Source: Pseudoxanthomonas sp. CF125 (GTDB lineage Bacteria > Pseudomonadota > Gammaproteobacteria > Xanthomonadales > Xanthomonadaceae). Taken from it: a stretch of DNA of 64,000 bases. Shown here in pieces: positions 23,919 through 46,300 of the stretch. The stretch's first letter is position 1, and each line of letters begins with the position of its first letter. Under the pieces are notes generated by a model. That model did no database searches, was not told where the DNA came from, and saw only the letters and a list, made by a program, of their open reading frames with translations. A program made the translations under genes and the position numbers. The stretch is from contig NZ_FNLD01000001.1 in NCBI RefSeq assembly GCF_900104085.1, positions 413,048-477,047 on the forward strand, given 5' to 3'.

Positions 23919-23932
23919 TGAAAACGTTTACA
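23919..23932. promoter_or_regulatory. LacI-family operator upstream of the GH3 gene
   Basis: TGAAAACGTTTACA is a near-perfect palindrome around a central CG, the typical LacI/GalR half-site arrangement. It lies 38 bases before the bglX start. The same sequence occurs before the GH144 gene, and one-base variants before lacI and the GH1 gene, which makes the LacI-type protein at 26452-27492 the likely binder. Confidence 0.75.
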
Positions 23933-23969: not shown

Positions 23970-26240
23970 ATGAAAGCGACGCATCGGAAGAGGAATCGTG
24001 GAGGACGTGCCCGGAGTTCCCTGGCACTGTGGATGATGGCCTTGGCGCCCTTGGGAGTGCTGGCCGCCGAAGCGGCAAAACCCTCCGATGGCGCGGAAAA
24101 GGCTTTCATCGACTCCCTGCTCGCGCGGATGACCCTGGAGGAAAAGCTGGGCCAGTTGAACCAGCCGCCCGGCATCGGCAACGACACCGGACCCAAGGCC
24201 AAGGCCGCCGGTACCGACCAGGTGCGCAAAGGCCAGGTGGGTTCGTTCCTGGGCATGCAGGGCGTAAAGCTGACCTGCGATATGCAGCGCATCGCGGTCA
24301 AGGAATCCAGGTTAGGCATCCCCCTCCTGTTCGGCTTCGACGTGATCCACGGCTATCGCACCGTATTCCCGGTGCCGTTGGGCGAAGCGGCCAGCTTCAA
24401 CCCGGTCGCCGTGGAGAAGGCTGCCCGGGTGGGTGCGGTAGAGGCCACCGCGCACGGTATCAACTGGACCTATGCGCCGATGGTGGACGTAGCGCGCGAT
24501 CCGCGCTGGGGTAGGGTGGTCGAGGGATCGGGCGAAGACACTTATCTGGGCCAAGTGATGGCGGTAGCGCGAGTGCGCGGCTTCCAGGGCAACGACTTGC
24601 GCGCTGCCGACAGCGTCCTGGCCACCGCCAAGCATTTCGTCGCCTATGGCGGCGCCGAAGCCGGCCGCGACTACAACACGGTGGATATTTCCGAACGCAC
24701 CCTGCGCGAGGTCTATCTGCCCCCCTTCCACGCAGCGGTCGATGCGGGCGTGGGATCGATAATGGCCTCCTTCAACGAGATCGCCGGCGTCCCGATGCAC
24801 GCCAATGGCCCGTTGATCAACGGCGTGCTGCGCGGCGAATGGGGCTTCGATGGCGTGCTGGTCAGCGACTACACCGGCGTGATGGAACTGATGAACCATC
24901 GCATCGCCGCCGATCCCGCCGAGGCAGGTAGGCGCGCGCTGGAGGCCGGCGTGGATATAGACATGGTCAGCGACATCTACCGCAAGGACATGCCCAAGGC
25001 GGTGCGCGCCGGGAAACTTCCCGTAGCTACGGTTGATGACGCGGTGCGCCGTGTGTTGCGCGCCAAGTACCGGCTGGGTTTGTTCGATAATCCGTACCGG
25101 AACTGCGACGAGTCGCTGGAAAAAAGCCAGACGCTTACCGCCGACCATCGCGACGCTGCGCGCACCATGGCGCGCGAATCCATGGTGTTGCTGAAGAACA
25201 AAGGCGCCGTGCTGCCGCTGTCCAAGCAAGTACGCACGCTAGCGGTGATCGGTCCGCTGGCCGACAACCCGCGCGCCATGCTGGGCAGCTGGGCGGGCAT
25301 GGGCCGTCCCGAAGATGTGGTGACGCCGCTTGCCGGCATCCGCGCCGCGGTCGGCCCGGAAACCAAAATCCTCTATGCGCGCGGCGCCGAAATCAACACT
25401 GCCGATACCACTGGCATCGCCGAAGCGGTGCGCATTGCCGGGCAGGCCGATGCGGTACTGCTGATGCTGGGCGAAGCCGAGGACATGAGCGGCGAAGCCA
25501 ACAACAGGACTTCGCTCGATCTGCCGGGCGTGCAGGAACAACTGGCGCTGGCCGTGCAGAAGACCGGCAAGCCGGTGGCCGCGGTGCTGTTCAACGGCCG
25601 ACCCTTGTCGGTCAATAGCCTGCAGGAACAGGTGCCGTCGATCCTGGAGGCGTGGTTCCCCGGCGTCGAAGCGGGCCATGCGCTGGCCGATGTCCTGTTC
25701 GGCGACTACAACCCGGCCGGGCGCCTGCCCATCACCTTCCCGCGCAATGTCGGGCAGGTGCCTATCTACTACGCGCACAAGAACACCGGCCGTCCGCCGC
25801 GCGAGGAGGAGAGATATTCCTCCAAGTACCTGGACGTCTCGTGGAAGCCGCTGTACGCCTTCGGACACGGACTCAGCTACACCAGCTTCCGTTACGACGC
25901 ACTGCGCTTGAGCCAGGAAAAGATCGCGGCCGACGGCACGCTGCAGGCGGAAGTCACCGTCACCAATACCGGCGACCGCGCGGGCGACGAAGTGGTGCAG
26001 CTCTACCTGCGCGACGATGTAGCCAGCATCACGCGCCCGGTAAAACAGCTGCGCGGGTTCCGCCGTGTCCACTTGCAGGCCGGGCAGTCGCAAACGTTGA
26101 CCTTCACCCTGACCGCAAATGACCTGGCCTTCTATGGAGCGGACATGAAACCGGTCGTGGAGCCAGGCAGTTTCACGGTGTTCGCTGGGGGCAATTCGGT
26201 CGACAATCTTGAAGCCAAGTTCGAAGTGACCGCGCAATAA
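23970..26240 (+). CDS. bglX: Periplasmic GH3 beta-glucosidase (BglX)
   Basis: The 756-residue enzyme has a long signal peptide (charged MKATHRKRNRGGRARSS, then LALWMMALAPLGVLAAEA). The GH3 N-terminal TIM barrel carries FGFDVIHGYRT, KHFVAYGGAEAGRDYN and the nucleophile D300 in FDGVLVSDYTGVM. The alpha/beta sandwich has the candidate acid/base Glu in LGEAEDMSGEANNRTSLDLPG. A fibronectin III-like domain ends the chain (EVTVTNTGDRAGDEVVQLYLRD). BglX-type enzymes release glucose from beta-linked oligoglucosides in the periplasm; GH3 members of beta-1,2-glucan loci cut sophoro-oligosaccharides. A strong ribosome-binding site (GGAAGGAGGAG) and a LacI operator precede it. First gene of the glucan locus. 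Confidence 0.94.
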   Translation: MKATHRKRNRGGRARSSLALWMMALAPLGVLAAEAAKPSDGAEKAFIDSLLARMTLEEKLGQLNQPPGIGNDTGPKAKAAGTDQVRKGQVGSFLGMQGVKLTCDMQRIAVKESRLGIPLLFGFDVIHGYRTVFPVPLGEAASFNPVAVEKAARVGAVEATAHGINWTYAPMVDVARDPRWGRVVEGSGEDTYLGQVMAVARVRGFQGNDLRAADSVLATAKHFVAYGGAEAGRDYNTVDISERTLREVYLPPFHAAVDAGVGSIMASFNEIAGVPMHANGPLINGVLRGEWGFDGVLVSDYTGVMELMNHRIAADPAEAGRRALEAGVDIDMVSDIYRKDMPKAVRAGKLPVATVDDAVRRVLRAKYRLGLFDNPYRNCDESLEKSQTLTADHRDAARTMARESMVLLKNKGAVLPLSKQVRTLAVIGPLADNPRAMLGSWAGMGRPEDVVTPLAGIRAAVGPETKILYARGAEINTADTTGIAEAVRIAGQADAVLLMLGEAEDMSGEANNRTSLDLPGVQEQLALAVQKTGKPVAAVLFNGRPLSVNSLQEQVPSILEAWFPGVEAGHALADVLFGDYNPAGRLPITFPRNVGQVPIYYAHKNTGRPPREEERYSSKYLDVSWKPLYAFGHGLSYTSFRYDALRLSQEKIAADGTLQAEVTVTNTGDRAGDEVVQLYLRDDVASITRPVKQLRGFRRVHLQAGQSQTLTFTLTANDLAFYGADMKPVVEPGSFTVFAGGNSVDNLEAKFEVTAQ

Positions 26241-26395: not shown

Positions 26396-26409
26396 TGGAA
26401 ACGTTTACA
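26396..26409. promoter_or_regulatory. LacI-family operator upstream of the lacI gene
   Basis: TGGAAACGTTTACA differs from the bglX and GH144 operators at one base. It lies 43 bases before the regulator's start, suggesting autoregulation. A related A/T-rich half-palindrome (TGAAAGCTTTACA, from 26375) sits 8 bases upstream and could be an auxiliary site or part of the promoter. Confidence 0.75.
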
Positions 26410-26451: not shown

Positions 26452-27492
26452 ATGGCGCGAACCAATGTCACCATCAAGGATGTTGCACGTGAAGCGTCGG
26501 TCTCCGTCGCCACCGTGTCGCGCGCGCTGAACGGGCATGAGAATGTCGCAGAAGGCGTACGCAAGCATGTGACGGAGATCGCAAATCGGCTTCGCTATCA
26601 GCCGCATGCCGCTGCCCGCAGCCTCAGCAGCCGCCGTACCCAGACCATCGGCGTCGTGTTGCCGGATTTATACGGCGAATTCTTTTCCGAGCTGATCCGC
26701 GGTATCGATGCGGTCGCCCGCGCGCGTCGCCAGCATCTGTTGGTTTCCAGTTATCACGGTCATCCGGAAGAGCAGGGCGAGGCGCTGCGCGCGATGCGCG
26801 GCCGCGTCGACGGCCTGCTGGTGTTGTCGCCTTACGCGGACCGTCCCGGCTTCCTCACCGACAATCTGCCGACGGCGCTGCCGGCGGTGCTGATCAATAC
26901 GCATCTGCCCGACGCCACCTATCCGGTGTTGAGCATCGACAACTTCGGCGGCGCATCGGCCATGGTCAAGCATCTGGCCGAAGCCGGGCACAAGCGCATC
27001 GCTTTCATTTGCGGTCCCGAAGACAACTTCGACGCCAGCGAGCGCCTGCGTGGCTATCGCACCGCACTGGCGCAGCATCTGCCCGATGCGCAGCCTATCG
27101 AGTTGCCGGGCGATTTCGACGAATCCTCCGGTTACGAAGCCGGCAAGCGGATCCTGGCTTCCAAGCAGCGTCCTGATGCGGTGTTCGCTGCGAACGACAT
27201 GATGGCGCTGGGTTGCCTCTACGCCTTCAACGAAGCGGGAGTGAAAGTCCCCGCGGACATAGCGCTGGCCGGATTCGACGACATTCCGCTGGCGCGCTTC
27301 GTTCACCCTACTTTGACCACGATGCGGGTCAGTATCGCGGAGCTGGGCGGGTTGGCGCTCACCCGCTTGCTGCAGTCGATCGAGTCCGAGGAATCGCAAC
27401 CGTCCACGCTGCAGACCCTGGTGCCCGAACTCATCGTGCGCGAATCCAGTATCCACGCAACACGCCGGAATACCCAATCCGGAAGTTCCTGA
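26452..27492 (+). CDS. LacI family transcriptional regulator
   Basis: The 346-residue protein has the LacI helix-turn-helix and hinge at the N-terminus (VTIKDVAREASVSVATVSRAL, read in pieces, then VTEIANRLRYQPHAAARSL) and a periplasmic-binding-protein-like sensor domain (TIGVVLPDLYGEFFSELIRG, FDDIPLARFVHPTLTTMRVS). It should bind a 14-bp palindrome and release it on binding a sugar. Five copies of such a site occur in this window in front of glucan genes, including its own. It is flanked by bglX and the TonB-dependent receptor, so it is the local regulator of the locus. The ATG is preceded by GGAGGGG. Confidence 0.93.
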   Translation: MARTNVTIKDVAREASVSVATVSRALNGHENVAEGVRKHVTEIANRLRYQPHAAARSLSSRRTQTIGVVLPDLYGEFFSELIRGIDAVARARRQHLLVSSYHGHPEEQGEALRAMRGRVDGLLVLSPYADRPGFLTDNLPTALPAVLINTHLPDATYPVLSIDNFGGASAMVKHLAEAGHKRIAFICGPEDNFDASERLRGYRTALAQHLPDAQPIELPGDFDESSGYEAGKRILASKQRPDAVFAANDMMALGCLYAFNEAGVKVPADIALAGFDDIPLARFVHPTLTTMRVSIAELGGLALTRLLQSIESEESQPSTLQTLVPELIVRESSIHATRRNTQSGSS

Positions 27493-27574: not shown

Positions 27575-30562
27575 ATGAAGAACCGCAAGCCGCGCAACAT
27601 CCGTCCCACACGCAAGTTGCTTACCTGTGCTTTGGCCAGTTGCCTGACGCTGAGCATGGCCCCCGCCTTCGCCCAGTCTTCCAATGCGACTCTGCGCGGC
27701 AAGGCGCCTATCGGAGCCCAGGTGACGGCGAAGAACACCGCCACTGGCTCGGTCCGTAGGGTCATGCCTAATGCCGATGGCTCCTACTCGCTGGTAGGCC
27801 TGCCGCCAGGTACTTATCAAGTCGATGCCGGTCCTGGCACCGAGCAAACAGTCACCCTGAGCGTGGCTACTTCGGTCAGCCTCGATTTGGGCGGCACTGC
27901 CGCCGCTCCGGCCACAGGCGACGCGACCACGTTGGATACGGTGACGGTGGTTGCGCCGCCGTTGACGGAAGTGAAGACTTCGGAAGTCGGCAACAATGTA
28001 TCGCTTAAGCAGATCAACACGGTGCCGCAGCTCACGCGTAACTTCCTGGAATTTGCGGACACCGTGCCGGGCATGCAGTTCTCCACCGACAGTTCCGGCC
28101 ATAGCGATATCCGTGGCGGTGCGCAGACCACCAGTGCGGTCAACGTCTATATCGACGGCGTCGGTCAGAAGAGCTATCTGTTCGGTGGTGTGTCGGGCCA
28201 GCAGCAAAGCGCGGGTAATCCGTTCCCGCAGCTGGCGATCGGCGAGTACAAAGTGATCACCTCGAACTACAAGGCCGAATTCGACCAAGTGGGTTCGGCT
28301 GCGATCGTCGCGGCGACGAAGTCCGGTACCAACGAGTTCCACGGCGAAGTATTCGGTCGGCATACAGATTCGAGCTGGCGCACTGAATACGCGAGCGAGA
28401 AGGCTCCAGGTAAAGAGAAGCAGAAAACCCACCAGAATGAGTATGGTTTTGCTCTTGGCGGTCCGATCATCCAGGACAAGATGCATTTCTTCGTCAGCTA
28501 CGAAGGGAAGGGCTTCATCCTGACCGCCGATCCGGTCGCCGTACCGGATCGATTCCGTACGTATGCGGATTTCCTGCCTGAAGATGTGCAGAGTCAATTC
28601 GGCCCGATCACTCGGCCATTCAAGGAGGATTTGTACTTCGGGAAAATTGACTGGGAGATCGGTGAAAACGACAAGCTCGAGTTTTCAGCAAAAATACGCG
28701 ACGAGGAAAGTCGCGACAGCGTAGGCGGCTTGACCACTGCGTCGGCCGCTAAGCTCAACGACAATACGGAAGAACGCTACGATCTGAATTGGGAACATTA
28801 CGGTGAGGGCTACCTCAACGAGTTCCGAATCACGTACGAAGACGTGCTGTTCAATCCGACGGCTTACACCATCGGCAATCAGTCTATCTACACGGCCCAG
28901 CAGAACCAGAACGACGTTCTGATCTTCAGCGACGCCACCAGCGGGTTGGCGATTCAACGCAAGGGGCAGAAAGGGCCGTCGGTCCAGAACGACATCACCT
29001 TCAATGGCTTCGAATGGAATGGCGACCACGTCATCAAGGCGGGCATCAAGTACAAGGAAGTCGATCTGACCCAGAGCGAGAACTCTACCGCCAACCCATC
29101 GTTCTATTACGAAGTCAATGACGGATCGCAGCCCGGGCCCGCCGGCACCAGCGCTATTCCTTATCAGGTCAGATTCAACCTGCCTTTTGCTGGCGCGACG
29201 CCCTCGGTGACCACCAAGTCCAAGCAGCTCGGCCTGTATATCCAGGACGACTGGAACGTCACCGACAAACTGCAGTTGAATCTGGGTATACGTTGGGACT
29301 ACGAGGAAATTCCTTCATACGTAGACCACGTAACGCCGCCTGAAGTAGTGGCTGCATTGACCGGTCCGGGCACCAACCCAGCGATAACGCCCACTTATGC
29401 AGAGCAACTTGCGCTGGGTGGTGTCGATCTTGCCGACTACATCAGCACGGGAAACAACCGCAAGGCCGACAAGGACAACTGGGCGCCGCGTCTTGGTTTC
29501 TCCTACGACCTGGGCGACGATGAGCGGCACGTGATCTTCGGTGGTGCGGGCCGTAGCTATGACCGGAATCTGTACGACTACATGGGCCTTGAACAGGTCA
29601 AGTCCGCATTGTCCGGATACACGATTCAGTTCTCGGATACGACCGGCTGCACGCCGACTCCGGGTAGCTGCGTTGCCTGGGACCCGAGCTTCCTCAATGG
29701 AACCGATGTGCTGGCTGGCCTGGTGACCTCGAATGTCCGCAATGGCGAAATAGATCTGCTGAATAATGACCTAGTCACGCCGTACTCGGACCAGTTCTCT
29801 TTGGGTATGCGTAACAAGATCGGCGAATGGAACACTTCGGCCACGATCGCTTACATCCATAGCAAAGAAGGTTTCGTCTTCACGCTGGGAAATCGCTATC
29901 CGAATGGGGATTTCTTCCAGGGCGGTTCGCAACCTTGGGGCCATTCGCCGCCCGGGTTCGGTGCATTGATCATCGGTAACAACGGCATTGAGACGAAAAC
30001 CAAGCAGTTGCTGCTGTCCGCCGACAAGCCCTATACCAAGGAATCCGGCTGGGGCGTCTCGGCTGCCTACACGTTCTCGGATGCGACCGGCAACCGTGGC
30101 GGTGATGAACATTACGCTTTCGATGCGGCGACGATCGAACAGTATCCGTTTATCGACCTCAAGGCAGTGCCCAAGCATCGCCTGGTGTTGACTGGTATCT
30201 ATGATCTGCCCTGGAACATCACGGCTTCAGCCAAGCTAACTCTGGCTACGCCGCCGCCGATTAACGAGATTGTGGGCGGGCCCTACTTTTCGCCGCCGCG
30301 TGCGGTGGCGATAGATGCGCCGGGTACGTTGGGGACCAAGCAGCTGGATCTGTCACTGTCGAAGGATTTCCTGGTGACAGAAGACGTGACGGTTCAAGTG
30401 CGAGGCGATCTGATCAATGCCACCGATGCGGATAATTTCAGCGGCTACACAACTGTCTTTGGCGACGGCGTAACCTACAACCCACAGGCGAGTGTCAACC
30501 GATACGGCACCCAGTACACGCCACCACGCACCTTGTTCATGAGCGTCCGGGTGATCTGGTAA
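27575..30562 (+). CDS. TonB-dependent outer-membrane receptor (Oar-like, with carboxypeptidase-regulatory domain)
   Basis: The 995-residue protein has a signal peptide (MKNRKPRNIRPTRKLLTCAL..., cleaved near PAFAQ). A carboxypeptidase-regulatory-like beta-sandwich follows at about 38-105 (GAQVTAKNTATGSVRRV, DGSYSLVGLPPGTYQVDA), then a plug domain at about 120-260 (VPQLTRNFLEFADTVPGM, SDIRGGAQTTSAVNVYIDG) and a beta-barrel ending in RTLFMSVRVIW with the terminal aromatic residue expected for outer-membrane insertion. It takes up a bulky substrate using TonB energy. Its place between lacI and glycosidase genes suggests an oligo- or polysaccharide. A strong ribosome-binding site (GGGAGGGGAGAGG) precedes the ATG. 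Confidence 0.93.
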   Translation: MKNRKPRNIRPTRKLLTCALASCLTLSMAPAFAQSSNATLRGKAPIGAQVTAKNTATGSVRRVMPNADGSYSLVGLPPGTYQVDAGPGTEQTVTLSVATSVSLDLGGTAAAPATGDATTLDTVTVVAPPLTEVKTSEVGNNVSLKQINTVPQLTRNFLEFADTVPGMQFSTDSSGHSDIRGGAQTTSAVNVYIDGVGQKSYLFGGVSGQQQSAGNPFPQLAIGEYKVITSNYKAEFDQVGSAAIVAATKSGTNEFHGEVFGRHTDSSWRTEYASEKAPGKEKQKTHQNEYGFALGGPIIQDKMHFFVSYEGKGFILTADPVAVPDRFRTYADFLPEDVQSQFGPITRPFKEDLYFGKIDWEIGENDKLEFSAKIRDEESRDSVGGLTTASAAKLNDNTEERYDLNWEHYGEGYLNEFRITYEDVLFNPTAYTIGNQSIYTAQQNQNDVLIFSDATSGLAIQRKGQKGPSVQNDITFNGFEWNGDHVIKAGIKYKEVDLTQSENSTANPSFYYEVNDGSQPGPAGTSAIPYQVRFNLPFAGATPSVTTKSKQLGLYIQDDWNVTDKLQLNLGIRWDYEEIPSYVDHVTPPEVVAALTGPGTNPAITPTYAEQLALGGVDLADYISTGNNRKADKDNWAPRLGFSYDLGDDERHVIFGGAGRSYDRNLYDYMGLEQVKSALSGYTIQFSDTTGCTPTPGSCVAWDPSFLNGTDVLAGLVTSNVRNGEIDLLNNDLVTPYSDQFSLGMRNKIGEWNTSATIAYIHSKEGFVFTLGNRYPNGDFFQGGSQPWGHSPPGFGALIIGNNGIETKTKQLLLSADKPYTKESGWGVSAAYTFSDATGNRGGDEHYAFDAATIEQYPFIDLKAVPKHRLVLTGIYDLPWNITASAKLTLATPPPINEIVGGPYFSPPRAVAIDAPGTLGTKQLDLSLSKDFLVTEDVTVQVRGDLINATDADNFSGYTTVFGDGVTYNPQASVNRYGTQYTPPRTLFMSVRVIW

Positions 30563-30617: not shown

Positions 30618-30696
30618 GCGATAGGACGAAAGTGCCGGAAATGGCTGGAACGAAGTTGACGAATTTGGGTCGTACCTGCATGAAGAGCGTCATGCG

Positions 30697-32223
30697 ATGA
30701 GCGAAAACGCGATCAAGAGCATCGTCATCGTCGGAGGCGGCACTGCCGGCTGGATGGCGGCTGCTGCGCTGTCGAAGGTGCTCGGCGACAAGTGCGCGAT
30801 ACGGCTGATCGAATCCGAGGCCATCGGCACGGTCGGCGTGGGCGAGGGCACCATTCCCCATATCAGGCTGTTCAACAGTCTGCTGCAGATCGACGAAGCC
30901 GATTTCGTCCGCAACACCCAGGGCACGTTCAAGCTCGGCATCCAGTTCAACGACTGGAACCGGTTGGGCGATTCCTACATGCACGGTTTCGGCAACGAGA
31001 TCGGTCGCGGGTTGGGCCTGCTTCCGTTCCATCAGTACTGGATCAAAGCGGCGAAGACGGGAAAAGCAGCCGGTATCGATGCCTACCTGCTGAGCGCGCT
31101 GGCCGCGCCGCGCGGCAAGTTCATGGTCTCCGCTTCCGATGTGCCCGCGGGATCTCCGCTGGCCAGCATCGCCTACGCCTACCACTTCGATGCCGGGCTC
31201 TATGCGCGCTACTTGCGCGGTTATTCGGAGAGGCGGGGAGTACAGCGTACCGAGGGCATCGTCGCCCGGGTGCTGCTCGATGCCGAAAGCGGTTTCGTGG
31301 ACGCGGTGGAGATGGAGAATGGGGAAGTCGTCCATGGCGACCTGTTCATAGACTGCTCCGGCTTCCGCGGCTTGCTGATCGAAGAGACGCTGAAAACCGG
31401 CTACATCGATTTCACCCACTGGCTGCCTTGCGACCGTGCGATGGCCGTGCCCAGCGAGAACGCAGGGCCGGCCGCGCCTTACACGCGGGCCACCGCGCGC
31501 GAAGCGGGATGGCAATGGCGTATCCCGCTGCAGCACCGCACCGGCAACGGTTATGTCTATTCCAGCGCGCACATCAGCGACGACGAAGCGACGGCGACGC
31601 TGTTGAAGAACCTGGATGGACGCGCGTTGGACGATCCACGACCGTTGCGCTTCACCACCGGTCGGCGCAAGAAATTCTGGAACAGGAATGTGGTCGCGCT
31701 CGGGCTTTCCAGCGGCTTCATGGAACCGCTGGAGGCGACCAGCATCCATCTCATCCAGGTGGGAATCATGCGATTGCTCAGCCTGCTCCCCCGGGAGGGA
31801 GTCAACGACGTTCTGGTGGATCGCTACAACGCGCAACTGAGCTTCGAGTTCGAGCGCATCCGCGACTTCCTTATCCTGCATTACCACGCCACCCAGCGCG
31901 ACGACACCGCTTTCTGGCGGCAATGCGCGGCTATGTCGATACCGGCCGAACTTCAAGCCAGCATCGACCTGTTCCGCGACAGCGGCCGTTTCTTCCGCAA
32001 TGCCGACGAGATGTTCGCGGAGATGAGCTGGGTGCAGATCATGATCGGGCAGGGCATCCTGCCGCAGAGTTACCATCCGCTCGTCGACCAGCTGCCCGAT
32101 GAAGAGCTGGCACGATTCATGGCCAGCATCGGTGGCACGATCTCCGACTGCGTCGACGTCATGCCGATGCAGCAAGCCTTCATTGACCGCTACTGCGCGG
32201 CTACTCCTCCAACAGCAATGTAG
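30697..32223 (+). CDS. Flavin-dependent tryptophan halogenase family protein
   Basis: The 508-residue protein belongs to the family that uses FADH2, O2 and chloride or bromide to halogenate an electron-rich ring. Catalytic features all sit at the numbering of PrnA/RebH as I recall it: dinucleotide loop IVGGGTAGWMAAAAL (about 11-25), Lys79 in GTFKLGIQFNDW that carries the hypohalous acid, the WxWxIP motif W272QWRIP277, and Glu346 in GFMEPLEATSIH. Residue 347 is Ala where PrnA has Ser. The substrate is unknown; genes of this family are often found beside TonB-dependent receptors in Caulobacter and xanthomonads. No flavin reductase gene is adjacent. No clear ribosome-binding site was seen. Confidence 0.9.
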   Translation: MSENAIKSIVIVGGGTAGWMAAAALSKVLGDKCAIRLIESEAIGTVGVGEGTIPHIRLFNSLLQIDEADFVRNTQGTFKLGIQFNDWNRLGDSYMHGFGNEIGRGLGLLPFHQYWIKAAKTGKAAGIDAYLLSALAAPRGKFMVSASDVPAGSPLASIAYAYHFDAGLYARYLRGYSERRGVQRTEGIVARVLLDAESGFVDAVEMENGEVVHGDLFIDCSGFRGLLIEETLKTGYIDFTHWLPCDRAMAVPSENAGPAAPYTRATAREAGWQWRIPLQHRTGNGYVYSSAHISDDEATATLLKNLDGRALDDPRPLRFTTGRRKKFWNRNVVALGLSSGFMEPLEATSIHLIQVGIMRLLSLLPREGVNDVLVDRYNAQLSFEFERIRDFLILHYHATQRDDTAFWRQCAAMSIPAELQASIDLFRDSGRFFRNADEMFAEMSWVQIMIGQGILPQSYHPLVDQLPDEELARFMASIGGTISDCVDVMPMQQAFIDRYCAATPPTAM

Positions 32224-32274: not shown

Positions 32275-32288
32275 TGAAAACGTTTACA
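32275..32288. promoter_or_regulatory. LacI-family operator upstream of the GH144-like gene
   Basis: TGAAAACGTTTACA, identical to the copy upstream of bglX, lies 12 bases before the chosen ATG at 32301. The site overlaps the 5' end of the longest open frame (from 32226), which shows that the upstream start is not the real one. Its closeness to the start suggests repression by blocking the promoter. Confidence 0.78.
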
Positions 32289-32300
32289 ACGGATCGCAAG

Positions 32301-33917
32301 ATGAATTCAGAAAATTCGAAACTTGTTCGCACGATCGCATTGGGCGCGCTGATCGGCCTCGCGGCCGCGTGCAACAAGGCGCCACCGCCCGCCGCAGCGC
32401 CAAAACCAGCGGACAAACCAGTGGCGGTCGTGCCCGCCCAGAACGTCAAGCCGGAACTCCCGCCGCTTTTCCGCGACATCGAGCGCCGCACGTTCCAGTT
32501 CTTCTGGGACACCACCAACGAAGTCAACGGGCTGACGCCCGACCGGTTTCCGTCGCGTCCGTTCGCCAGTGTCGCCTCGGTCGGCTTTTCGCTGACCGCC
32601 TACCCCATCGGCATCGAAAACAACTGGGTCAGCCGCAATCAGGCGGTGGATCGGACTCTGCTGACGCTCAAATTCTTCCGCGACATGCCGCAAGGGCCGC
32701 AGCGCACGGGCAAGGGCGGCTACAAGGGGTTCTACTACCACTTCGTGGACATGCAGAAAGGCCAGCGCTACGACAGCTGGGTGGAGCTGTCCAGCGTCGA
32801 CACCGCCTTGCTGATGATGGGAGTGCTGTTCGCGCAGTCGTATTACGACCGCGACGATCCGCGCGAGAAGGAGATCCGCGATGTCGCCGAAGAACTTTAC
32901 CGGCGCGTGGACTGGCCCTGGATGCAGCAGAACAAGCCGCTGATCTCGATGGGCTGGTACCCGGAGAGCGGTTTCATCAAGCACGACTGGGCCGGCTACA
33001 ACGAGGCCATGATGGTCTATGTACTGGCGCTGGGTTCGCCTACCCATCCGGTCAGCCCGGACGCATGGGAAGTGTGGACGCGTACCTACAACGAAGTCTG
33101 GGGCGTGTACCAGGACCAGGAGTTCCTGGCGTTCGGCCCGACGCTCGGCCATCAGTACAGCCATGTCTGGATCGACTTCAAGGGTATCCAGGACGACTAC
33201 ATGCGCGAACGCGGCCTCGATTACTTCGAGAACAGCCGCCGCGCCACGCTGGCGCAACGCTCGTACGCGATTTCCAACCCGATGAAGTGGAAGGATTATG
33301 GTGAGAACGTGTGGGGCCTGACCGCCAGCGACGGTCCGCAGCAGACGCTGCAGGACTATCGCGGCGAGCAGCGCGAATTCCGCCACTATTCTTCGCGGGG
33401 CGCGGGCCTGCGCGAGAATTTCGATGACGGCACCATCGCCCCGACCGCCGCCGTGGCCTCGCTGCCCTTCGCTCCGGAGATAGTCATACCCGCCACCATG
33501 GAGATGCATAGCCGCTACGGCGAATACATCTATTCCAGCTACGGTTTCCTGGATTCGTTCAACCGCAGCTTCGAATACGACATCCCGCTCAAGACCGGGC
33601 GGCTGGTGCCGGGCGAGGGCTGGGTGTCCAGCGACTACATCGGTATCGACCAGGGGCCGATCCTGGCCATGATCGCCAACTACCGCAACGGATTCGTCTG
33701 GAACGTGATGAAGAAGAATGCGCACATCAGGCAGGGTCTGGAGCGCGCCGGATTCAAGGGCGGATGGCTCACGCCGGAAGGCGAGCCCGTGCCCGCCCAG
33801 GCTCCTGCCGATCCCAAGGCCGCTACGGCGCGCGCACTGGGCACCGCCGAATCCCGCGGCAGCAATCCGGACGGCCAGCAAGAGGAAGCTGCGCAAAGGC
33901 CGCAGCAGCCGAAGTAA
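32301..33917 (+). CDS. Glycoamylase-like lipoprotein, GH144 family candidate (endo-beta-1,2-glucanase?)
   Basis: The start at 32301 gives 538 residues beginning MNSENSKLVRTIALGALIGLAAACNK, a lipoprotein-type signal with the modified Cys in LAAAC, so it is envelope-anchored. A Pro/Ala linker follows to about residue 48. The rest matches the glycoamylase-like (PF10091) (alpha/alpha)6 barrel: RRTFQFFWDTTNEVNGLTPDRF (in pieces), SVASVGFSLTAYPIG, GYKGFYYHFVD, ELSSVDTALLMMGVLF and WIDFKGIQDDYMRERGLDYFENSRRAT (in pieces). Characterised family members (GH144) are endo-beta-1,2-glucanases, hence the suggested substrate. I could not confirm the catalytic acids. It heads an apparent operon with the ABC importer. 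Confidence 0.85.
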   Translation: MNSENSKLVRTIALGALIGLAAACNKAPPPAAAPKPADKPVAVVPAQNVKPELPPLFRDIERRTFQFFWDTTNEVNGLTPDRFPSRPFASVASVGFSLTAYPIGIENNWVSRNQAVDRTLLTLKFFRDMPQGPQRTGKGGYKGFYYHFVDMQKGQRYDSWVELSSVDTALLMMGVLFAQSYYDRDDPREKEIRDVAEELYRRVDWPWMQQNKPLISMGWYPESGFIKHDWAGYNEAMMVYVLALGSPTHPVSPDAWEVWTRTYNEVWGVYQDQEFLAFGPTLGHQYSHVWIDFKGIQDDYMRERGLDYFENSRRATLAQRSYAISNPMKWKDYGENVWGLTASDGPQQTLQDYRGEQREFRHYSSRGAGLRENFDDGTIAPTAAVASLPFAPEIVIPATMEMHSRYGEYIYSSYGFLDSFNRSFEYDIPLKTGRLVPGEGWVSSDYIGIDQGPILAMIANYRNGFVWNVMKKNAHIRQGLERAGFKGGWLTPEGEPVPAQAPADPKAATARALGTAESRGSNPDGQQEEAAQRPQQPK

Positions 33918-33991: not shown

Positions 33992-34105
33992 GCCGTCATC
34001 CCAGCGAACGCTGGGATCCATTTTGACTTTGCATTTCCCTTTGCATGAATCGAACGACTTTGAAGTAAGAGCAAAATGGATCCCAGCGTTCGCTGGGATG
34101 ACGGC
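33992..34105. repeat. REP-like element with perfect 34-bp inverted arms
   Basis: Arms 33992-34025 and 34072-34105 are exact inverted copies; each arm is itself a palindrome around ATCCCAGC-GAAC-GCTGGGAT. The 46-base centre holds no gene. The element lies between the GH144-like gene and the binding-protein gene of the importer, where its stable double hairpin could reduce readthrough. It differs in sequence from the other REP elements in the window. Confidence 0.85.
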
Positions 34106-34129
34106 AAGAGTGTGAGGCTGCGGACGACC

Positions 34130-35410
34130 ATGGCCTTGCGCACGCTCCTTGTAATCGCTGCCTTGCTCGCTCTCTGCGTGGCCTGCAGCCGCAAGACCGA
34201 CGACCGCGAAGTGGTCACGTTCTGGGCGATGGGCTACGAAGGGGAAGTGGTCGCCCAGTTGATACCGGAATTCGAGCGGCAGAATCCCGGCATCCGTGTC
34301 GACCTGCAGCAGTTGCCGTGGCTGTCGGCGCACGAGAAGTTGCTGACCGCCTTCGCGGGCGAGTCGCTGCCGGACGTATCGCCGATAGGCAACACCTGGA
34401 TCCCGGAATTCGCCGCGCTCGATGCGCTGGAGCCGCTCGACGACGAAATCGCGGCGACGCCGGATTTCGACGTGCCCGATTATTTCCCCGGAGTATGGGA
34501 CAGCGGCCTGGTCGACGGGAAAATCTATGCGGTGCCCTGGTACGTGGAGACGCGCCTGCCTTTCTACCGCACCGATCTGCTGGCCAAAGCCGGTATCGCC
34601 ACGCCGCCGCGCAGCTGGGAAGAGTGGCGCAAGGCCATGCAGGCGGTGAAGCGCGAAGTGGGGCCCGAGCGTTATGCGATCCTGCTGCCGTTGAACGAAT
34701 TCGAGCCGCTGTTGAGCCTGGCCATACAGGAACCGGACCCGCTGCTGCGCGATGGCGGCCGCTACGGCAATTTCCGCAGCGCCGGCTTCAAGCACGCGTT
34801 GGGCTTCTACAAGGAACTATTCGACCAGAAGCTCGCGCCGGTGGTCACCAACAACCAGATCTCCAATGTCTGGGACGAATTCGGCAAGGGCTTCTATTCG
34901 TATTACATCTCCGGGCCCTGGAACATCGCCAAGTTCAAGGAGCGTTTGCCCGCCGCACAGCAGGACGACTGGATGACCATGCCGCTGCCCGGTCCGAACG
35001 GCCCGGGCGCATCGCTGGCCAACGGCACCAGCTTCGTGGTGTTCCGCCAGTCCAGGCACAAAGCGGCGGCGTGGAAGCTGATCCACTATCTTTCCCTGCC
35101 GCAGACGCAGGCCCGCTTCCATGAGCTCACCGGCGACCTGCCGCCGCGGCGTTCGCCCTGGCAGACGCCGGCGCTGGCCAACGATCCGCACGCCAAAGCC
35201 TTCCGCGAGCAACTCGAGCGTGCCGTGCCGACGCCCAAGGTGCCCGAATGGGAGCGCATCGCGCAGGAGATGCGGATCATCGGCGAGGAGGTCGCCAACG
35301 GACGCATGACCATCGACCAGGCCGCCGAGGAAATGGACCGCCGCGCCGATCGCTTCCTGGAGAAGCGCCGTTGGATGCTGGACCATCCAGCCAAGGCGGG
35401 TGCGCCATGA
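34130..35410 (+). CDS. ABC transporter sugar-binding lipoprotein (family 1)
   Basis: The start at 34130 gives 426 residues with a lipoprotein signal (MALRTLLVIAALLALCVACSRK, modified Cys19). The protein is a periplasmic sugar-binding protein of the MalE/UgpB class: VTFWAMGYEGEVVAQLIPEFERQNPGI (in pieces), ESLPDVSPIGNTWIPEFAALDAL, KIYAVPWYVETRLPFYRTDLL and SNVWDEFGKGFYSYYISGPWNI are family blocks. It delivers an oligosaccharide to the two permeases encoded next. The stop overlaps the first permease start (ATGA). An in-frame ATG at 34076 lies inside the REP element and is rejected. Confidence 0.93.
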   Translation: MALRTLLVIAALLALCVACSRKTDDREVVTFWAMGYEGEVVAQLIPEFERQNPGIRVDLQQLPWLSAHEKLLTAFAGESLPDVSPIGNTWIPEFAALDALEPLDDEIAATPDFDVPDYFPGVWDSGLVDGKIYAVPWYVETRLPFYRTDLLAKAGIATPPRSWEEWRKAMQAVKREVGPERYAILLPLNEFEPLLSLAIQEPDPLLRDGGRYGNFRSAGFKHALGFYKELFDQKLAPVVTNNQISNVWDEFGKGFYSYYISGPWNIAKFKERLPAAQQDDWMTMPLPGPNGPGASLANGTSFVVFRQSRHKAAAWKLIHYLSLPQTQARFHELTGDLPPRRSPWQTPALANDPHAKAFREQLERAVPTPKVPEWERIAQEMRIIGEEVANGRMTIDQAAEEMDRRADRFLEKRRWMLDHPAKAGAP

Positions 35411-36285
35411 AGGCCTCTACCGCGGGTTGGTTGTTCGCGGCGCCGGCGCTGACCGTGATCGGTCTATTCTTCGGGTTGCCGGTGGTCGCCGCGCTGGCGC
35501 TGAGCCTGACCGACTTCGACATCTATGCGCTGGCCGATCCGGGCAATCTGCGCTTCGTCGGCCTTGGCAACTACGTGGGCTTGTTGCAGAACCCGTTGTT
35601 CTGGAAATCGCTCGGCAACACCTTGTACTTCGTGATCGTGGGCGTACCGTTATCAGTGGCGATGTCGCTGGGTGCAGCGCTGCTGCTGCATTCCAAAGTC
35701 GGACGTCTCAAGCCTTTCTTCCGCACTGCCTATTTCGCGCCGGTAGTGACTACGGTGGTGGCCGTGGCGGTGATCTGGCGTTATCTGTTCCACACCAGAT
35801 ACGGTCTGGTGAACTGGGGTCTGTCGGCGTTGGGCATCGACGCCATCGACTGGCTGGGCGACCCGCGCTGGGCCATGCCCACCATCATTCTGTTCGCGGT
35901 GTGGAAGAACTTCGGCTACAACATGATCATCTTCCTGGCCGGTCTGCAGAGCATCCCGGAAGACCTTTACGAAGCGGCGCGCATCGACGGCGCCAATACC
36001 TGGAAGCAGTTTCGCCACGTGACCCTGCCGATGCTGGGGCCGGTGCTGCTTCTGGTGAGCATCCTGACCATGGCCGGTTATTTCCAGTTGTTCGCTGAGC
36101 CCTACGTGATGACCCAGGGCGGGCCGCTGGAAAGCACCAAGAGCGTGCTGTACCTGATGTACGAGGAAGGCTTCAAATGGTGGAACCTGGGCAACGCTTC
36201 GGCGGTCGCGTTCCTGTTGTTCCTGCTGATGGTGGCGACCACCAGCGGGCTGCTGTGGTTCGCGCGCCGCAAGGGGGTGGAATGA
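35407..36285 (+). CDS. ABC sugar transporter permease (MalF/UgpA type)
   Basis: The 292-residue protein has six membrane segments and the EAA loop that docks the ATPase (EAARIDGANTWKQFRHVTLPML). N-terminal GWLFAAPALTVIGLFFGLPVVAAL and the LFAEPYVMTQGGPLESTKSV motif are typical of the MalF/UgpA side of family-1 carbohydrate importers. Start and stop overlap the neighbouring genes by 4 bp each (ATGA), so all three importer genes are translated as one unit. A longer open frame from 35248 lies inside the binding-protein gene. Confidence 0.94.
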   Translation: MKASTAGWLFAAPALTVIGLFFGLPVVAALALSLTDFDIYALADPGNLRFVGLGNYVGLLQNPLFWKSLGNTLYFVIVGVPLSVAMSLGAALLLHSKVGRLKPFFRTAYFAPVVTTVVAVAVIWRYLFHTRYGLVNWGLSALGIDAIDWLGDPRWAMPTIILFAVWKNFGYNMIIFLAGLQSIPEDLYEAARIDGANTWKQFRHVTLPMLGPVLLLVSILTMAGYFQLFAEPYVMTQGGPLESTKSVLYLMYEEGFKWWNLGNASAVAFLLFLLMVATTSGLLWFARRKGVE

Positions 36286-37106
36286 AGCGTCGTCCGCTCT
36301 GGTCGCTGGCCGTGAACGCGATGCTGATCGTGGTCGCAGTGATCAGCCTGGCGCCGTTGTTGTGGATGCTGTCGGTGTCCTTCATGCAGACCGGCGAAGC
36401 GGGGCATTTCCCGCCGCCGCTGCTGCCCTCGCACGCCACCTTGGACAACTATCGCGAATTGTTCATGCGCGCGGGCATGGGCCGCTTTCTGTTCAACAGC
36501 TTCCTCATCTCCAGCTGCGTGATGCTGCTGTCGGTATTGTTCAACACGCTGGCCGGCTACGCCTTCGCCAAGCTGCGCTTCAAGGGCCGCGACCGCACCT
36601 TCCGGGCCTTGCTGGCCGCACTGGTGATCCCGGCGCAGGTGGCGATGATGCCGTTGTTCCTGCTGCTCAAGCAGATGGGCCTGGTCAACACCTACATGGG
36701 CGCCATCGTGCCGGGCATGGCCGCGATCTTCGGGATTTTCCTGGTGCGGCAGTACGCGCGCACGATTCCCGACGAACTGCTGGAAGCCGCGCGTATCGAC
36801 GGCGCCGGCGAATGGCGGATCTTTTTCCAGATCGTGCTGCCGGCACTCAAGCCGATCCTGGTGACGCTGGCCATCTTCAGTTTTCTCGGTGCCTGGAACG
36901 ATTTCATGTGGCCGTTGATCGTACTGAGCGACGACCGGCTGCAGACGCTGCCGGTGGCGCTGGCCTCGTTGTCGCGCGAACACGTGATGGACTACGAGCT
37001 GATGATGGCCGGTTCGGTGGTGACGATCCTGCCGGTGCTGTTGTTGTTCCTGGTGCTGCAGCGGTACTACATCCAGGGCTTGTTGCTGGGAAGCGTAAAA
37101 GGATAA
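36282..37106 (+). CDS. ABC sugar transporter permease (MalG/UgpE type)
   Basis: The 274-residue partner permease has six membrane segments, an EAA loop (LLEAARIDGAGEWRIFFQIVLPALKP, in pieces) and the MalG-type FSFLGAWNDFMWPLIVLSD motif. N-terminal LAPLLWMLSVSFM fits the class. It starts at 36282 overlapping the previous gene by 4 bp and ends in GLLLGSVKG. The matching ATPase gene is not adjacent; the only candidate in the window is at 46301-47398. The next gene follows after 2 bases. Confidence 0.94.
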   Translation: MKRRPLWSLAVNAMLIVVAVISLAPLLWMLSVSFMQTGEAGHFPPPLLPSHATLDNYRELFMRAGMGRFLFNSFLISSCVMLLSVLFNTLAGYAFAKLRFKGRDRTFRALLAALVIPAQVAMMPLFLLLKQMGLVNTYMGAIVPGMAAIFGIFLVRQYARTIPDELLEAARIDGAGEWRIFFQIVLPALKPILVTLAIFSFLGAWNDFMWPLIVLSDDRLQTLPVALASLSREHVMDYELMMAGSVVTILPVLLLFLVLQRYYIQGLLLGSVKG

Positions 37107-37108
37107 CG

Positions 37109-40100
37109 ATGATTGTTCTGTGCGAAATAATCGAATCGTCATTCCCGCGAAGGCGGGAACCCAGTGACTTTTCTTTGCCGCGCATGGCCGCGAGCAAAAG
37201 TCACTGGGTTGACCGGCTTACGCCGTTGAAAAGCGCTTCCGCCTTCGCGGGAATGACGGGATCAATCTTTTTCAATGGTTTGTTTGCACTGCTCGGGTTG
37301 GGTTCGTTCGCGGCAACAGCACAAGAAAAACCCCGCATCCTCGACGACTTCAGCAACCCAACCACCTGGCGCGTGGTCACCTCCAACCAGGTCAGCGGCA
37401 GCCTGCGCACGGTCGAGGGAACGAAGGGCAAGGCTCTGTGCCTGGATTACGATTACAACGGCGTCTCCGGCTATGTCGGCATCCAGCGCGACCAGCCGCT
37501 GGAATACCCGCAGAACTACCGCTTCGATTTCCAGTTGCGCGGCGACTCGCCGAAGAACGATCTGCAGTTCAAAGTGACCGACGCCAGCGGCGACAACGTG
37601 TGGTGGGTGAACAAGCCCAGGTACGAGTACCCGCACCAATGGACCGGCGTGCGTTACCAGAAGCGGCATATCGACAAGGCCTGGGGTCCCGATCCCGACC
37701 GTGTCCTGCGCAAGAGCGCCAAACTCGAATTCACCATTTACAACAACGAAGGCGGCAAGGGCTCGGTCTGCTTCGACGAGTTGACCTTCACTGTACTGGC
37801 GCCGGAAGACCGTTCGCCGCTCACCGCCACGGCCAGCGTATCGGTCGCCAATGGCAGCGGCGTGGGCGGCAATGCAGTAGATGGGGATCCGGAGACGGCC
37901 TGGTATGCGGACTTCGCCGCCGCGACGCAGCCGCGGCTGACCCTGGACCTGGGCAAGCAACGCGAGTTCGGCGGCCTGAAGCTGGTGTGGAAACAAGGCG
38001 AATCCGCCTCGGATTATCTATTGCAGCTCTCAGACGACGGTACGCGTTGGCGCGACGTGCGCACCGTCGTGGGCGGCGACGGCGGCAGCGACTATCTGGC
38101 GCTTCCCGAATCCGAAGCGCGTTATTTGCGTTTGAGTATGGCGGCCGGACCTGGGAAATCGTTCGGGCTTGCCGAGGCGGTAATAGAGCCGTTGCAGTTC
38201 GCTGCGACGCCCAACGATTTCATCAAGTCGGTCGCTGGCGATAATCCGCGCGGCTGGTTTCCGCGCGGCTTCGTCGGCGAGCAGCCGTACTGGACCATCG
38301 TCGGTATCGATGGCGGCCACGAGCAGGGTCTGATCGGCGAAGACGGTGCGATCGAACTGGGCAAGGGCGCGCCCAGCATCGCGCCCATGATCCTGGTCGA
38401 TGGCAAGCTGGTCACCTGGGCCGACGTAGAGTTGAGCCAATCCTTGCAGGACGGCTATCTGCCGATTCCCAGCGTCGACTGGAAGCATGCCGATTTCGGC
38501 TTGCGCGTGACCGCGTTCGCTGAAGGCAAGCCCGGCGATGCGAGACTGGTGGGACGCTACCGGCTGACGAACACCGGCAAGCGCACGCGCGACTACGTGC
38601 TCGCCTTGGCAGTGCAGCCTTGGCAGGTCAATCCGCCCAGCCAATTCCTCAATACTCCCGGTGGCATCAGTACGATCACCGAGCTGCAGCTGACCCCGAC
38701 CCATCTCTGGATCAACGGCGATACCGACAGGCCCGATACGCTCCAGCATAAGATCGTGGAAGCCGTCGAGCCAGCGGATGCGATGCTGGCGACGCCCTTC
38801 GACGCGGGCATGATCGCCCGGCGATTGCAAGCGGGTGGCGATCTTTGGAGCAGCACGGACGCCAAGCTGGCAAGAGTGGAAGATGACTCGACAGGACTGG
38901 CTTCCGGTGCGTTGCTGTACCGGATCAAGCTGGCGCCTGGGGAAAGCCGCGAAGTAGCGTGGCTGCTGCCGCTGGAAGGCGGCATCGCCTATGACCACGT
39001 CGCCACCACCGGTTTCAATGCCCGCACTGCCCAGGAACAGGCCGCCGCGCAGTGGCGCGAAAAACTGGATCAGGTGCGGATCAAGGTTCCGTCGCAAGGC
39101 CAGGCACTGGTCGATACGTTGCGTACCGCCACCGCGCACATGCTGATCTCGCGTATCGGTCCGCGCCTGCAACCGGGCACGCGCTCGTACGCGCGCAGCT
39201 GGATACGCGACGGGGCGATGATCTCCGAAGGCCTGCTGCGCATGGGCCGCGAGGAAGTAGTGCGCGACTACGTCGAATTCTATGCGCCGTACCAGTTCAA
39301 GGACGGCATGGTGCCGTGCTGCGTGGACGACCGCGGCAGCGACCCGGTGCCGGAGAACGACAGCCATGGCGAACTGATCTACAACATCGCCGAGCTGTAC
39401 CGCTACGACGGCGACAAGGCGTTCCTGGAACAGATGTGGCCGCACGTGCTGGGCGCGTACCGATACATGGAGAAATTGCGCCTGAGCGAGCGCACCGAGG
39501 CCAATCGCGCGCTCAACCCGGCCTTCTACGGAATGATGCCGGTGTCGATCAGCCACGAAGGCTATTCGGCCAAACCGGTGCATTCGTACTGGGACAATTT
39601 CTGGGCGCTGCGCGGCTACAAGGATGCGGTGGACGTGGCCCTTTGGCTGGGCAAGGACGAAGACGCCAAGCGCTTCGCCGCTTCGCGCGACCAGTTCCAT
39701 GAAGACCTGTACCTGTCTTTCCAGGCCGCGGTGCGGCAGCACGGCATCGACTTCCTGCCGGGGTCGGCGGAACTGGGCGATTTCGACGCCACCTCGACCA
39801 CCATCGGTCTGGCCCCTGGCGGCGAGCAGGACAGGATGCCGAAGCAATTGCTGGATGCGACCTTCGAGCGCTATTGGAAAGAGTTCGAGAAACGCAGCAA
39901 CGGTACGCGCGAATGGAAGGATTACACGCCTTACGAATGGCGGAACGTGTCGGCCTTCGTACGCCTGGGCTGGCGCGAACGCGCGTGGGATGCGGTGCAG
40001 TTCTTCTTCAAGGACCGTGCGCCGCAGCCCTGGAACCAGTGGGCCGAAGTGGTCTCGCACACGCCGCGCAAACCGTTCTTCGTCGGCGATCTGCCGCATG

Positions 40101-40465
40101 CGTGGGTAGCGTCGGATTTTGTGCGCTCGGCGCTGGATATGTTCGCTTATGCGCGCGAGTCGGACGACAGTATTGTGCTGGCGGCAGGGGTTCCGACGGA
40201 CTGGCTGGAAGGGAAGGGCATCGCCATCCGCGACCTGCGCACGCCGGGGGGCAAGCTGAGCTATTCGCTGCGCCATGAGCGCGGCAAACTGGAACTGGAG
40301 ATCGATGCGGGCCTGAAGAAGCTACCCACCGGCGGCCTGATCCTGCAATGGCCGTATCCGAACGCCCCTGGGCGAACGACCATCAACGGGCAGCTCGCGG
40401 AGTGGAAGGACGGTGAGTTGCGCGTGTTGAAGTTGCCCGCGCGCGCGATAGCCGAGACGCCCTAG
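37109..40465 (+). CDS. Large secreted multidomain protein: jelly-roll, F5/8 type C and (alpha/alpha)-barrel glycosidase-like domains
   Basis: The frame from 37109 encodes 1118 residues. The signal-peptide core (SIFFNGLFALLGLGSFAATAQ) lies only at residues 52-72; the preceding stretch is a REP element read in frame. The ATG at 37109 has a ribosome-binding site (AAAAGGA) 2 bases after the permease stop; an alternative ATG at 37253 has none. Domains: carbohydrate-binding-like jelly-roll (about 75-230, ILDDFSNPTTWRV), F5/8 type C sugar-binding domain (about 235-350, AVDGDPETAWYADFA, LTLDLGK) and a C-terminal helical barrel (about 640-1020, SYARSWIRDGAMISEGLLRMG, ENDSHGELIYNIAELYRYDGD, GDLPHAWVASDFVRS). 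I do not recognise the family; an exo-acting glucan hydrolase is inferred from neighbours. Confidence 0.82.
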   Translation: MIVLCEIIESSFPRRREPSDFSLPRMAASKSHWVDRLTPLKSASAFAGMTGSIFFNGLFALLGLGSFAATAQEKPRILDDFSNPTTWRVVTSNQVSGSLRTVEGTKGKALCLDYDYNGVSGYVGIQRDQPLEYPQNYRFDFQLRGDSPKNDLQFKVTDASGDNVWWVNKPRYEYPHQWTGVRYQKRHIDKAWGPDPDRVLRKSAKLEFTIYNNEGGKGSVCFDELTFTVLAPEDRSPLTATASVSVANGSGVGGNAVDGDPETAWYADFAAATQPRLTLDLGKQREFGGLKLVWKQGESASDYLLQLSDDGTRWRDVRTVVGGDGGSDYLALPESEARYLRLSMAAGPGKSFGLAEAVIEPLQFAATPNDFIKSVAGDNPRGWFPRGFVGEQPYWTIVGIDGGHEQGLIGEDGAIELGKGAPSIAPMILVDGKLVTWADVELSQSLQDGYLPIPSVDWKHADFGLRVTAFAEGKPGDARLVGRYRLTNTGKRTRDYVLALAVQPWQVNPPSQFLNTPGGISTITELQLTPTHLWINGDTDRPDTLQHKIVEAVEPADAMLATPFDAGMIARRLQAGGDLWSSTDAKLARVEDDSTGLASGALLYRIKLAPGESREVAWLLPLEGGIAYDHVATTGFNARTAQEQAAAQWREKLDQVRIKVPSQGQALVDTLRTATAHMLISRIGPRLQPGTRSYARSWIRDGAMISEGLLRMGREEVVRDYVEFYAPYQFKDGMVPCCVDDRGSDPVPENDSHGELIYNIAELYRYDGDKAFLEQMWPHVLGAYRYMEKLRLSERTEANRALNPAFYGMMPVSISHEGYSAKPVHSYWDNFWALRGYKDAVDVALWLGKDEDAKRFAASRDQFHEDLYLSFQAAVRQHGIDFLPGSAELGDFDATSTTIGLAPGGEQDRMPKQLLDATFERYWKEFEKRSNGTREWKDYTPYEWRNVSAFVRLGWRERAWDAVQFFFKDRAPQPWNQWAEVVSHTPRKPFFVGDLPHAWVASDFVRSALDMFAYARESDDSIVLAAGVPTDWLEGKGIAIRDLRTPGGKLSYSLRHERGKLELEIDAGLKKLPTGGLILQWPYPNAPGRTTINGQLAEWKDGELRVLKLPARAIAETP
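37138..37257. repeat. REP-like element inside the 5' end of the 1118-residue gene
   Basis: Outer arms 37138-37156 and 37239-37257 are exact 19-bp inverted copies (GTCATTCCCGCGAAGGCGG type); inner arms 37158-37172 and 37196-37210 are 15-bp inverted copies (AACCCAGTGACTTTT). The element contains no stop in the frame used by the gene, and the ATG at 37253 is part of its right arm. It appears to have inserted between the ribosome-binding site and the signal peptide coding sequence. Confidence 0.85.
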
Positions 40466-46149: not shown

Positions 46150-46300
46150 TGGCAGAATACCGCAAGCCTTCCATCAGCGGAACCGGTCGAAGGCAGAAAT
46201 AAAGCCGATTGCATCCCGATTGCCGCAGCCGGCGATCGCGAGCATGCCAGCAGTCACCGGGAGGGCCGGCGACCGTGAGTACTTCATCGCCGGAGAGATG

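Follow-up and report, generated by a model that had tools for sequence, protein, structure and literature searches.

An intact, probably active flavin-dependent halogenase beside the TonB-dependent receptor of a predicted beta-1,2-glucan utilization locus in Pseudoxanthomonas

What does a flavin-dependent halogenase (FDH) do in a locus for sugar utilization? We asked this of a gene in a 64,000-nucleotide stretch of the Pseudoxanthomonas sp. CF125 genome (here called the window; Table 1), in which a first-pass annotation had described a halogenase among carbohydrate-handling genes. Those neighbors indeed handle carbohydrate, and by gene content (GH144, GH3, ABC importer, and LacI) they are a predicted beta-1,2-glucan utilization cluster. 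The GH144 product matches XcSGL (XCC2207) at an E value of 2e-284 over residues 40 to 558, and XcSGL is reported to hydrolyze beta-1,2-glucan (PMC12102758). Its open reading frame is listed from 32226, upstream of a putative operator, but a start at Met26 (32301), which precedes a lipobox-like LAAAC, appears likelier. Downstream, a GH1 gene accompanies the genes for glucokinase, a MalK-type ATPase, and an ILVD/EDD-family dehydratase that is possibly the Entner-Doudoroff 6-phosphogluconate dehydratase. The gene set of a carbohydrate utilization locus with a TonB-dependent receptor (CUT) is present: a TonB-dependent receptor (TBDR, for which "Oar-like" is a label of this analysis), a regulator, an inner-membrane transporter, and CAZymes. 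As the first-pass annotation had stated, neither a secondary-metabolite gene nor a flavin reductase was found among the neighbors scanned with Pfam, which make up part of the genes in the window; two PF01613 flavin reductases are encoded elsewhere in the genome.

Table 1. Features of the locus, with positions in the window
Feature	Position	Strand	Details
Operator copy upstream of GH3	23920..23932	+	exact RAAACGTTTACA
GH3 beta-glucosidase, BglX-like	23970..26240	+	
Operator copy upstream of LacI-TBDR-FDH	26397..26409	+	exact RAAACGTTTACA
LacI-family regulator	26452..27492	+	
TBDR, CarboxypepD_reg + OMP_b-brl_4 barrel	27575..30562	+	995 aa, directly upstream of FDH
FDH, BrvH/Xcc4156 clade (predicted)	30697..32223	+	508 aa; K79, H96, F98, W272-x-W274-x-I-P277, E346
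Operator copy between FDH stop and likely GH144 start	32276..32288	+	exact RAAACGTTTACA
GH144 beta-1,2-glucanase, probable lipoprotein	32301..33917	+	close to XcSGL/XCC2207
Sugar ABC transporter solute-binding protein (SBP), SBP_bac_1	34076..35410	+	
ABC permease	35248..36285	+	start codon probably later than listed
ABC permease, UgpE/MalG type	36177..37106	+	
Large probable glycoside hydrolase, F5/8 type C domain	37145..40465	+	start approximate
ILVD/EDD-family dehydratase	41474..43387	-	
Glucokinase	43622..44671	-	
MalK-type ABC ATPase	46220..47398	+	one-mismatch operator-like site at 46137-46149

The halogenase gene is intact. Its product matches the Trp_halogenase profile (PF04820; E = 5.4e-198) over residues 9 to 467 and carries each of the hallmarks of the PF04820 flavin-dependent halogenases: the GxGxxG FAD motif (GGGTAG, residues 13 to 18), the catalytic Lys (K79, in FKLGI, 78 to 82), WxWxIP (WQWRIP, 272 to 277), and the catalytic Glu (E346, in LEAT, 345 to 348). 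The collected loci gave 155 FDH-like gene calls. Full-length calls numbered 150, with 146 distinct sequences among them, and do not include the very divergent copy L084:7027-8469. K79, H96, F98, W272, W274, and E346 were invariant in all 150, and H96 and F98 are what we take to be the counterparts of PrnA H101 and F103; P277 (139), S347 (140), F440 (148), and W445 (147) were less strictly kept. These unchanged catalytic residues rule out a degenerate enzyme, in agreement with the first-pass annotation, and a dN/dS of 0.09 against the nearest collected relative (locus L006) points to purifying selection. The FDH is thus probably an active enzyme. The WxWxIP motif is likewise found in the tryptophan 7-halogenases PrnA and RebH. 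The annotation had put Lys79, this motif, and Glu346 at exactly the PrnA/RebH positions, which is right for K79 in both enzymes and for E346 in PrnA (PDB 2jkc is titled PrnA E346D), but the glutamate of RebH is E357 (PMC5945002).

In sequence and structure, the closest neighbors of the FDH are PDB entries 6Y1W, 9LUQ, and 6FRL, ahead of the true tryptophan halogenases. Its AlphaFold model (mean pLDDT of 92.1, from a 44-row alignment) resembles Xcc4156 of Xanthomonas campestris (6Y1W; 50% identity over 493 residues, rmsd 1.1, Z 54.3), with like catalytic residues. BrvH of Brevundimonas BAL3 (6FRL) is 46% identical (Z 50.5), and the Pseudoalteromonas sp. L11 tryptophan halogenase (9LUQ, released 2026-02-11), for which our literature search found no paper, is 49% identical (Z 52.1). 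PrnA and RebH share the fold at 31 to 34% identity (Z 48.8 for the best entries). The BrvH indole-contact residues M442, F443, and S447 (PMC5945002) align with M439, F440, and S444. Sequence and model therefore place the FDH, as a predicted additional member, in the already known BrvH/Xcc4156 clade of orphan indole brominases. One difference lies in gene context: the BrvH gene adjoins a second FDH gene (PMC5945002), whereas the FDH of the window is single and stands behind a TBDR.

What is reported of these relatives bears on the likely substrate. Xcc4156 and BrvH halogenate indoles but not free tryptophan, lack the loops that close over tryptophan, and might accept peptides (PMC7336383); bromination is preferred (PMC7336383, PMC5945002), and as of 2020 the native substrates of BrvH and three Xanthomonas halogenases were described as still unknown (PMC7336383). 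The long loop with which PrnA and RebH bind the tryptophan backbone (PMC7336383, PMC5945002) appears to be missing from the FDH as well: residues 410 to 507 align without gaps to Xcc4156 across its short loop, the second of the two, and region 1 (about residues 142 to 158) is 8 residues longer than in Xcc4156 and nearer in length to BrvH. On clade membership and this loop comparison, a free-tryptophan halogenase of the PrnA/RebH kind was rejected (PMC7336383). The lanthipeptide tryptophan halogenase MibH (PDB 5UAO; 28% identity, Z 39.9), which shares the fold and whose open site the BrvH authors cite (PMC5945002), works on Trp within a peptide as part of a lanthipeptide pathway. MibH-type precursor peptide or maturation genes were absent from the scanned neighbors of the FDH gene, and inspection by eye of the gap between TBDR and FDH revealed no obvious precursor peptide.

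The recurrent pairing of halogenase-like genes with TBDR genes, which the first-pass annotation had pointed out in Caulobacter and xanthomonads, is real. The 93 match rows in the window's family gave 47 loci, in which we scored 51 FDH genes. Eighteen follow a TBDR gene with no other marked gene between, 15 follow one via SapC and Cupin_8 genes, 3 via FDH, SapC, and Cupin_8, and 1 via GH3, such that 36 of the 51 lie behind a TBDR with nothing marked, or SapC-Cupin_8 with or without another FDH, between. Ten others are divergent to a pullulanase or GH97 gene, 2 follow a pullulanase gene, and 2 have no marked neighbor; 12 therefore have a pullulanase or GH97 gene as neighbor and no TBDR immediately upstream. 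In 80 loci found by the FDH itself, a set enriched for window-like loci, 92 FDH genes were scored, and 67 of them lie behind a TBDR with no other marked gene intervening. Beta-1,2-glucan, GH2 (mannosidase-like), and pullulanase/GH97 loci alike contain FDHs in which the catalytic and indole-contact residues are the same. SapC, Cupin_8, and DUF6445 proteins, other possible modifiers, recur in several FDH loci. The second FDH of the window's genome stands in a five-gene run, TBDR-SapC-Cupin_8-FDH-DUF6445 (L129:7907-15347). In Sphingopyxis, Maricaulis, and Maricaulaceae (L079, L084, and L085), four FDH-like genes lie in a row beside a divergent TBDR gene, and the divergent copy set aside above still belongs to PF04820. 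No paper explaining a pairing of halogenase with TonB, SapC, cupin, or CUT/PUL genes was among the matches listed from open-license PMC text.

Presence and absence within one operon separate action in the sugar pathway from action with the receptor. In 79 genomes of the window's family, with Lysobacteraceae as the nearest named relatives, FDH homologs (E ≤ 1e-30) were detected in 43 and receptor homologs in 56, and the beta-1,2-glucan cluster exists both with and without FDH. Among 40 receptor-centered loci, covering 43 of 52 strong receptor rows, FDH adjoins the receptor in 7 (L089 to L092, L097, L098, and L100), the TBDR is followed directly by GH144 in 29, and neither gene is beside the receptor in 4 (L094, L095, L096, and L127). 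The GH144 and TBDR-FDH loci are separate in two genomes (G006, loci L108 and L098; G017, loci L120 and L090). The sample is not unbiased, since most FDH-bearing loci were reached via FDH and the FDH-less ones via the receptor.

We compared the trees of the cluster's genes over an identical set of 32 loci (8 with FDH), counting the fewest changes of FDH state on each tree against 500 shuffles. The TBDR tree required 2 changes (shuffled mean, 7.2 to 7.3), a count that none of the 500 shuffles reached; the LacI tree required 5 (11 to 14 shuffles as low), and the GH144 tree required 7 (262 to 263 shuffles as low). In the 26 loci that also have SBP, the counts were 2 for TBDR, 4 for LacI, 5 for GH144, and 4 for SBP, and in 38 loci with TBDR and GH144 they were 2 and 7, the former rising to 3 when the other receptor of L100 was used. 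In unmatched sets, the receptor required 4 changes in 67 rows (shuffled mean, 22.6), GH144 9 in 56, LacI 8 in 49, and SBP 8 in 44, each count lying below the shuffled mean for its set. Mirror-tree partial correlations over 22 loci (FDH-TBDR, 0.34; FDH-GH144, 0.27; FDH-SBP, 0.21; FDH-LacI, 0.04) were too close to decide. Two loci of the same genus illustrate the pattern. L113, which has no FDH, is 86.9% identical to the window in LacI, 84.7% in GH144, and 88.0% in SBP, versus 49.9% in TBDR. L100 carries, in order, a receptor of the FDH-less clade, a receptor of the FDH clade, FDH, and GH144. Four receptors of the FDH clade stand without FDH (L096, L093, L094, and L099), most simply through loss.

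An element between the genes points the same way. In the 4.2-Mb genome, the near-palindromic site RAAACGTTTACA, a putative LacI-type operator, is found in three exact copies, each within the beta-1,2-glucan locus, and its reversed control has none. Because one copy stands between FDH and GH144, LacI-TBDR-FDH and GH144-SBP-permeases look like separate transcription units. The exact core occurs at the GH144 start in 3 of 7 inspected FDH-bearing GH144 loci (the window, L006, and L100), between TBDR and GH144 in 0 of 7 inspected FDH-less loci (L113, L104, L114, L118, L112, L120, and L108), before LacI in 3 of 7 inspected FDH-less loci, and in none of the 3 inspected Xanthomonas FDH loci. Taking the tree counts together with this operator position, these data suggest that in the beta-1,2-glucan locus the FDH goes with the receptor and not with sugar breakdown. 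The MalK-type ATPase may join the regulon, with a one-mismatch operator-like copy ahead of its gene. Between TBDR and FDH (30590 to 30625), a GC-rich hairpin is followed by T-rich sequence, although the hairpin scan listed it on the minus strand only; since T-rich stretches recur there in several relatives, an attenuator that lowers FDH expression is possible.

It is only for the beta-1,2-glucan locus that linkage of this strength is shown. In a second locus family (TBDR-FDH, with GH2 behind in 4 of 5 cases; 5 receptors with FDH and 10 without), TBDR and FDH were adjacent, but receptors with and without FDH were mixed on the tree, and clade linkage was not convincing (3 changes of FDH state versus 4.3 to 4.4 when shuffled; 43 to 59 of 500 shuffles as low). 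In one of its loci (L176) the TBDR is followed directly by GH2. Across loci, the FDH accompanies receptor genes as an accessory and has been gained or lost repeatedly.

The receptor and FDH genes probably also share a history of exchange in part. Between the window and Pseudoxanthomonas sacheonensis (L006), dS is 1.13 for TBDR and 0.77 for FDH, compared with 0.28 for GH3, 0.17 for LacI, 0.16 for GH144, and 0.14 for SBP. The drop in identity begins at about 27.7 kb and is over by about 31.85 kb, within FDH, with shorter dips elsewhere in the locus (e.g., near 37.0 and 40.5 kb). The TBDR-FDH block was probably exchanged together, and because it ends inside FDH, hitch-hiking could account for this case. 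Across 74 close pairs, receptor dS was in excess sometimes with and sometimes without an FDH excess; in L016 and L017 the TBDR has a dS of 1.14 and FDH one of 0.12, the receptor having recombined without FDH. In several pairs, including L016/L017 and Xanthomonas loci, receptors diverge out of step with their neighbors, with or without FDH, a pattern that recombination driven by phages or bacteriocins might produce. An exchange between TBDR plug and barrel was considered and rejected, the plug being merely more conserved.

Is the receptor itself the substrate? We compared Trp positions in 34 FDH-clade receptors of FDH loci (three of which either lead a tandem pair of receptors or stand further off) with 29 receptors of the other clade (one of which, L100_10011, stands in an FDH locus). 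None was specific to the FDH clade: Trp residues fixed in all 34 are also present in 14 to 29 of the 29, as with W406 (34/34 versus 14/29), and W788 is found in 97% versus 13/29. The four FDH-clade receptors without FDH retain the fixed Trp residues, W406 included, and also W788. D366 and H408 occur in 34/34 versus 0/29; they were rejected as FDH-linked residues and mark the clade only, because the same four receptors keep both.

The reading that we favor, tentatively and with somewhat less than half of our confidence, is that the FDH is a catalytically competent BrvH/Xcc4156-type halogenase acting as an accessory of the receptor arm of the beta-1,2-glucan locus. We infer that the enzyme is active, that it is made from one LacI-TBDR-FDH transcript, and that its substrate is linked to the receptor, since FDH tracks the receptor lineage and shares the LacI-TBDR unit. 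The surface or signaling molecule suggested in the first-pass annotation may still apply, with receptor-linked substrates favored. FADH2 would reach the FDH in trans, and the hypohalous acid formed would be passed by K79 and E346 to an indole ring in a BrvH-like pocket (M439, F440, and S444; H96 and F98). By analogy with published relatives, which brominate indoles but not tryptophan and have an open active site, an indole group on something larger than free Trp would be halogenated, probably brominated. The probable substrate would then be the TBDR chain, modified before it is exported, or else a molecule handled by that receptor alone, and its halogenation may affect uptake or recognition.

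Modification of the receptor proper is a narrower claim, and we consider it improbable, at about one chance in several, although linkage, tracking, the open site of relatives, and recurrence beside a Cupin_8 protein argue for it indirectly. Cupin_8-type folds include protein hydroxylases. On a broader and similarly doubtful view, FDH would, together with SapC, Cupin_8, and DUF6445 of sister operons, form tailoring cassettes that modify TBDRs before export, a halogenated receptor Trp tuning ligand binding or hiding the receptor from phages or bacteriocins. Such cassettes would explain why genes of this kind stand behind receptors across sugar loci and beside receptors that often recombine. A halogenase role in virus-host receptor interactions has been guessed at in another setting (PMC11337851).

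The linkage to the receptor would also be accounted for if an indolic or phenolic small molecule, such as an aromatic substituent or contaminant of the glycan, came in through the receptor and the FDH modified it, detoxifying or tagging it in the cytoplasm. We rate this as unlikely, though a real contender. The relatives take free indole and its derivatives (PMC5945002, PMC7336383), and D366 and H408 could mean a different receptor ligand. However, an unusual ligand should also affect SBP, LacI, and GH144, which track FDH less well or not at all, and the same FDH residues recur in loci for beta-1,2-glucan, GH2, and pullulanase/GH97 sugars.

Two further alternatives are each quite improbable. 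A diffusible halogenated indole, made as a signal or antibiotic and merely sugar-induced, would fit the 3-bromoindole that BrvH yields in vitro, but turnover of indole by BrvH is low and its authors doubt indole as the true substrate (PMC5945002). Biosynthetic genes were absent from the scanned neighbors, the locus has import-type ABC genes (leaving aside the role of a further ABC ATPase at 51407 to 52339), and the tracking of the receptor would go unexplained. The other is that the FDH no longer halogenates and is an FAD-dependent oxidase or redox protein, as the first-pass annotation had allowed, or else a neutral hitch-hiker of receptor recombination. In its favor, the FDH is dispensable, being absent from 33 of the 40 receptor-centered loci and scattered in the second locus family, and the block exchanged with L006 could be hitch-hiking. 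Lost halogenation is nevertheless disfavored because the residues are invariant in all 150 full-length FDHs, K79 and E346 included, and because BrvH and Xcc4156 halogenate indoles (PMC5945002, PMC7336383); the low dN/dS and the retention of FDH over wide divergence argue for selected, halogenating chemistry. Least probable, and very unlikely, is that the target is not the receptor but some other protein that the locus encodes for the envelope or for secretion, such as the lipoprotein glucanase. The FDH genes beside pullulanase or GH97 and the other possible modifiers in several loci would suit this, but GH144 occurs with and without FDH as if at random.

The within-operon test of presence and absence and the operator layout are seemingly new. 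They provide natural pairs from a single genus, whose shared operon carries FDH in one member and lacks it in the other, and a small set of candidate targets. Receptor halogenation, if real, would add a new class to the known surface modifications of bacteria and would open a source of peptide halogenases. Elsewhere in the cluster, the large protein encoded behind the permeases has only weak matches to catalytic families (six-hairpin glycosidase) and may be an enzyme of beta-1,2-glucan use that has been little described.
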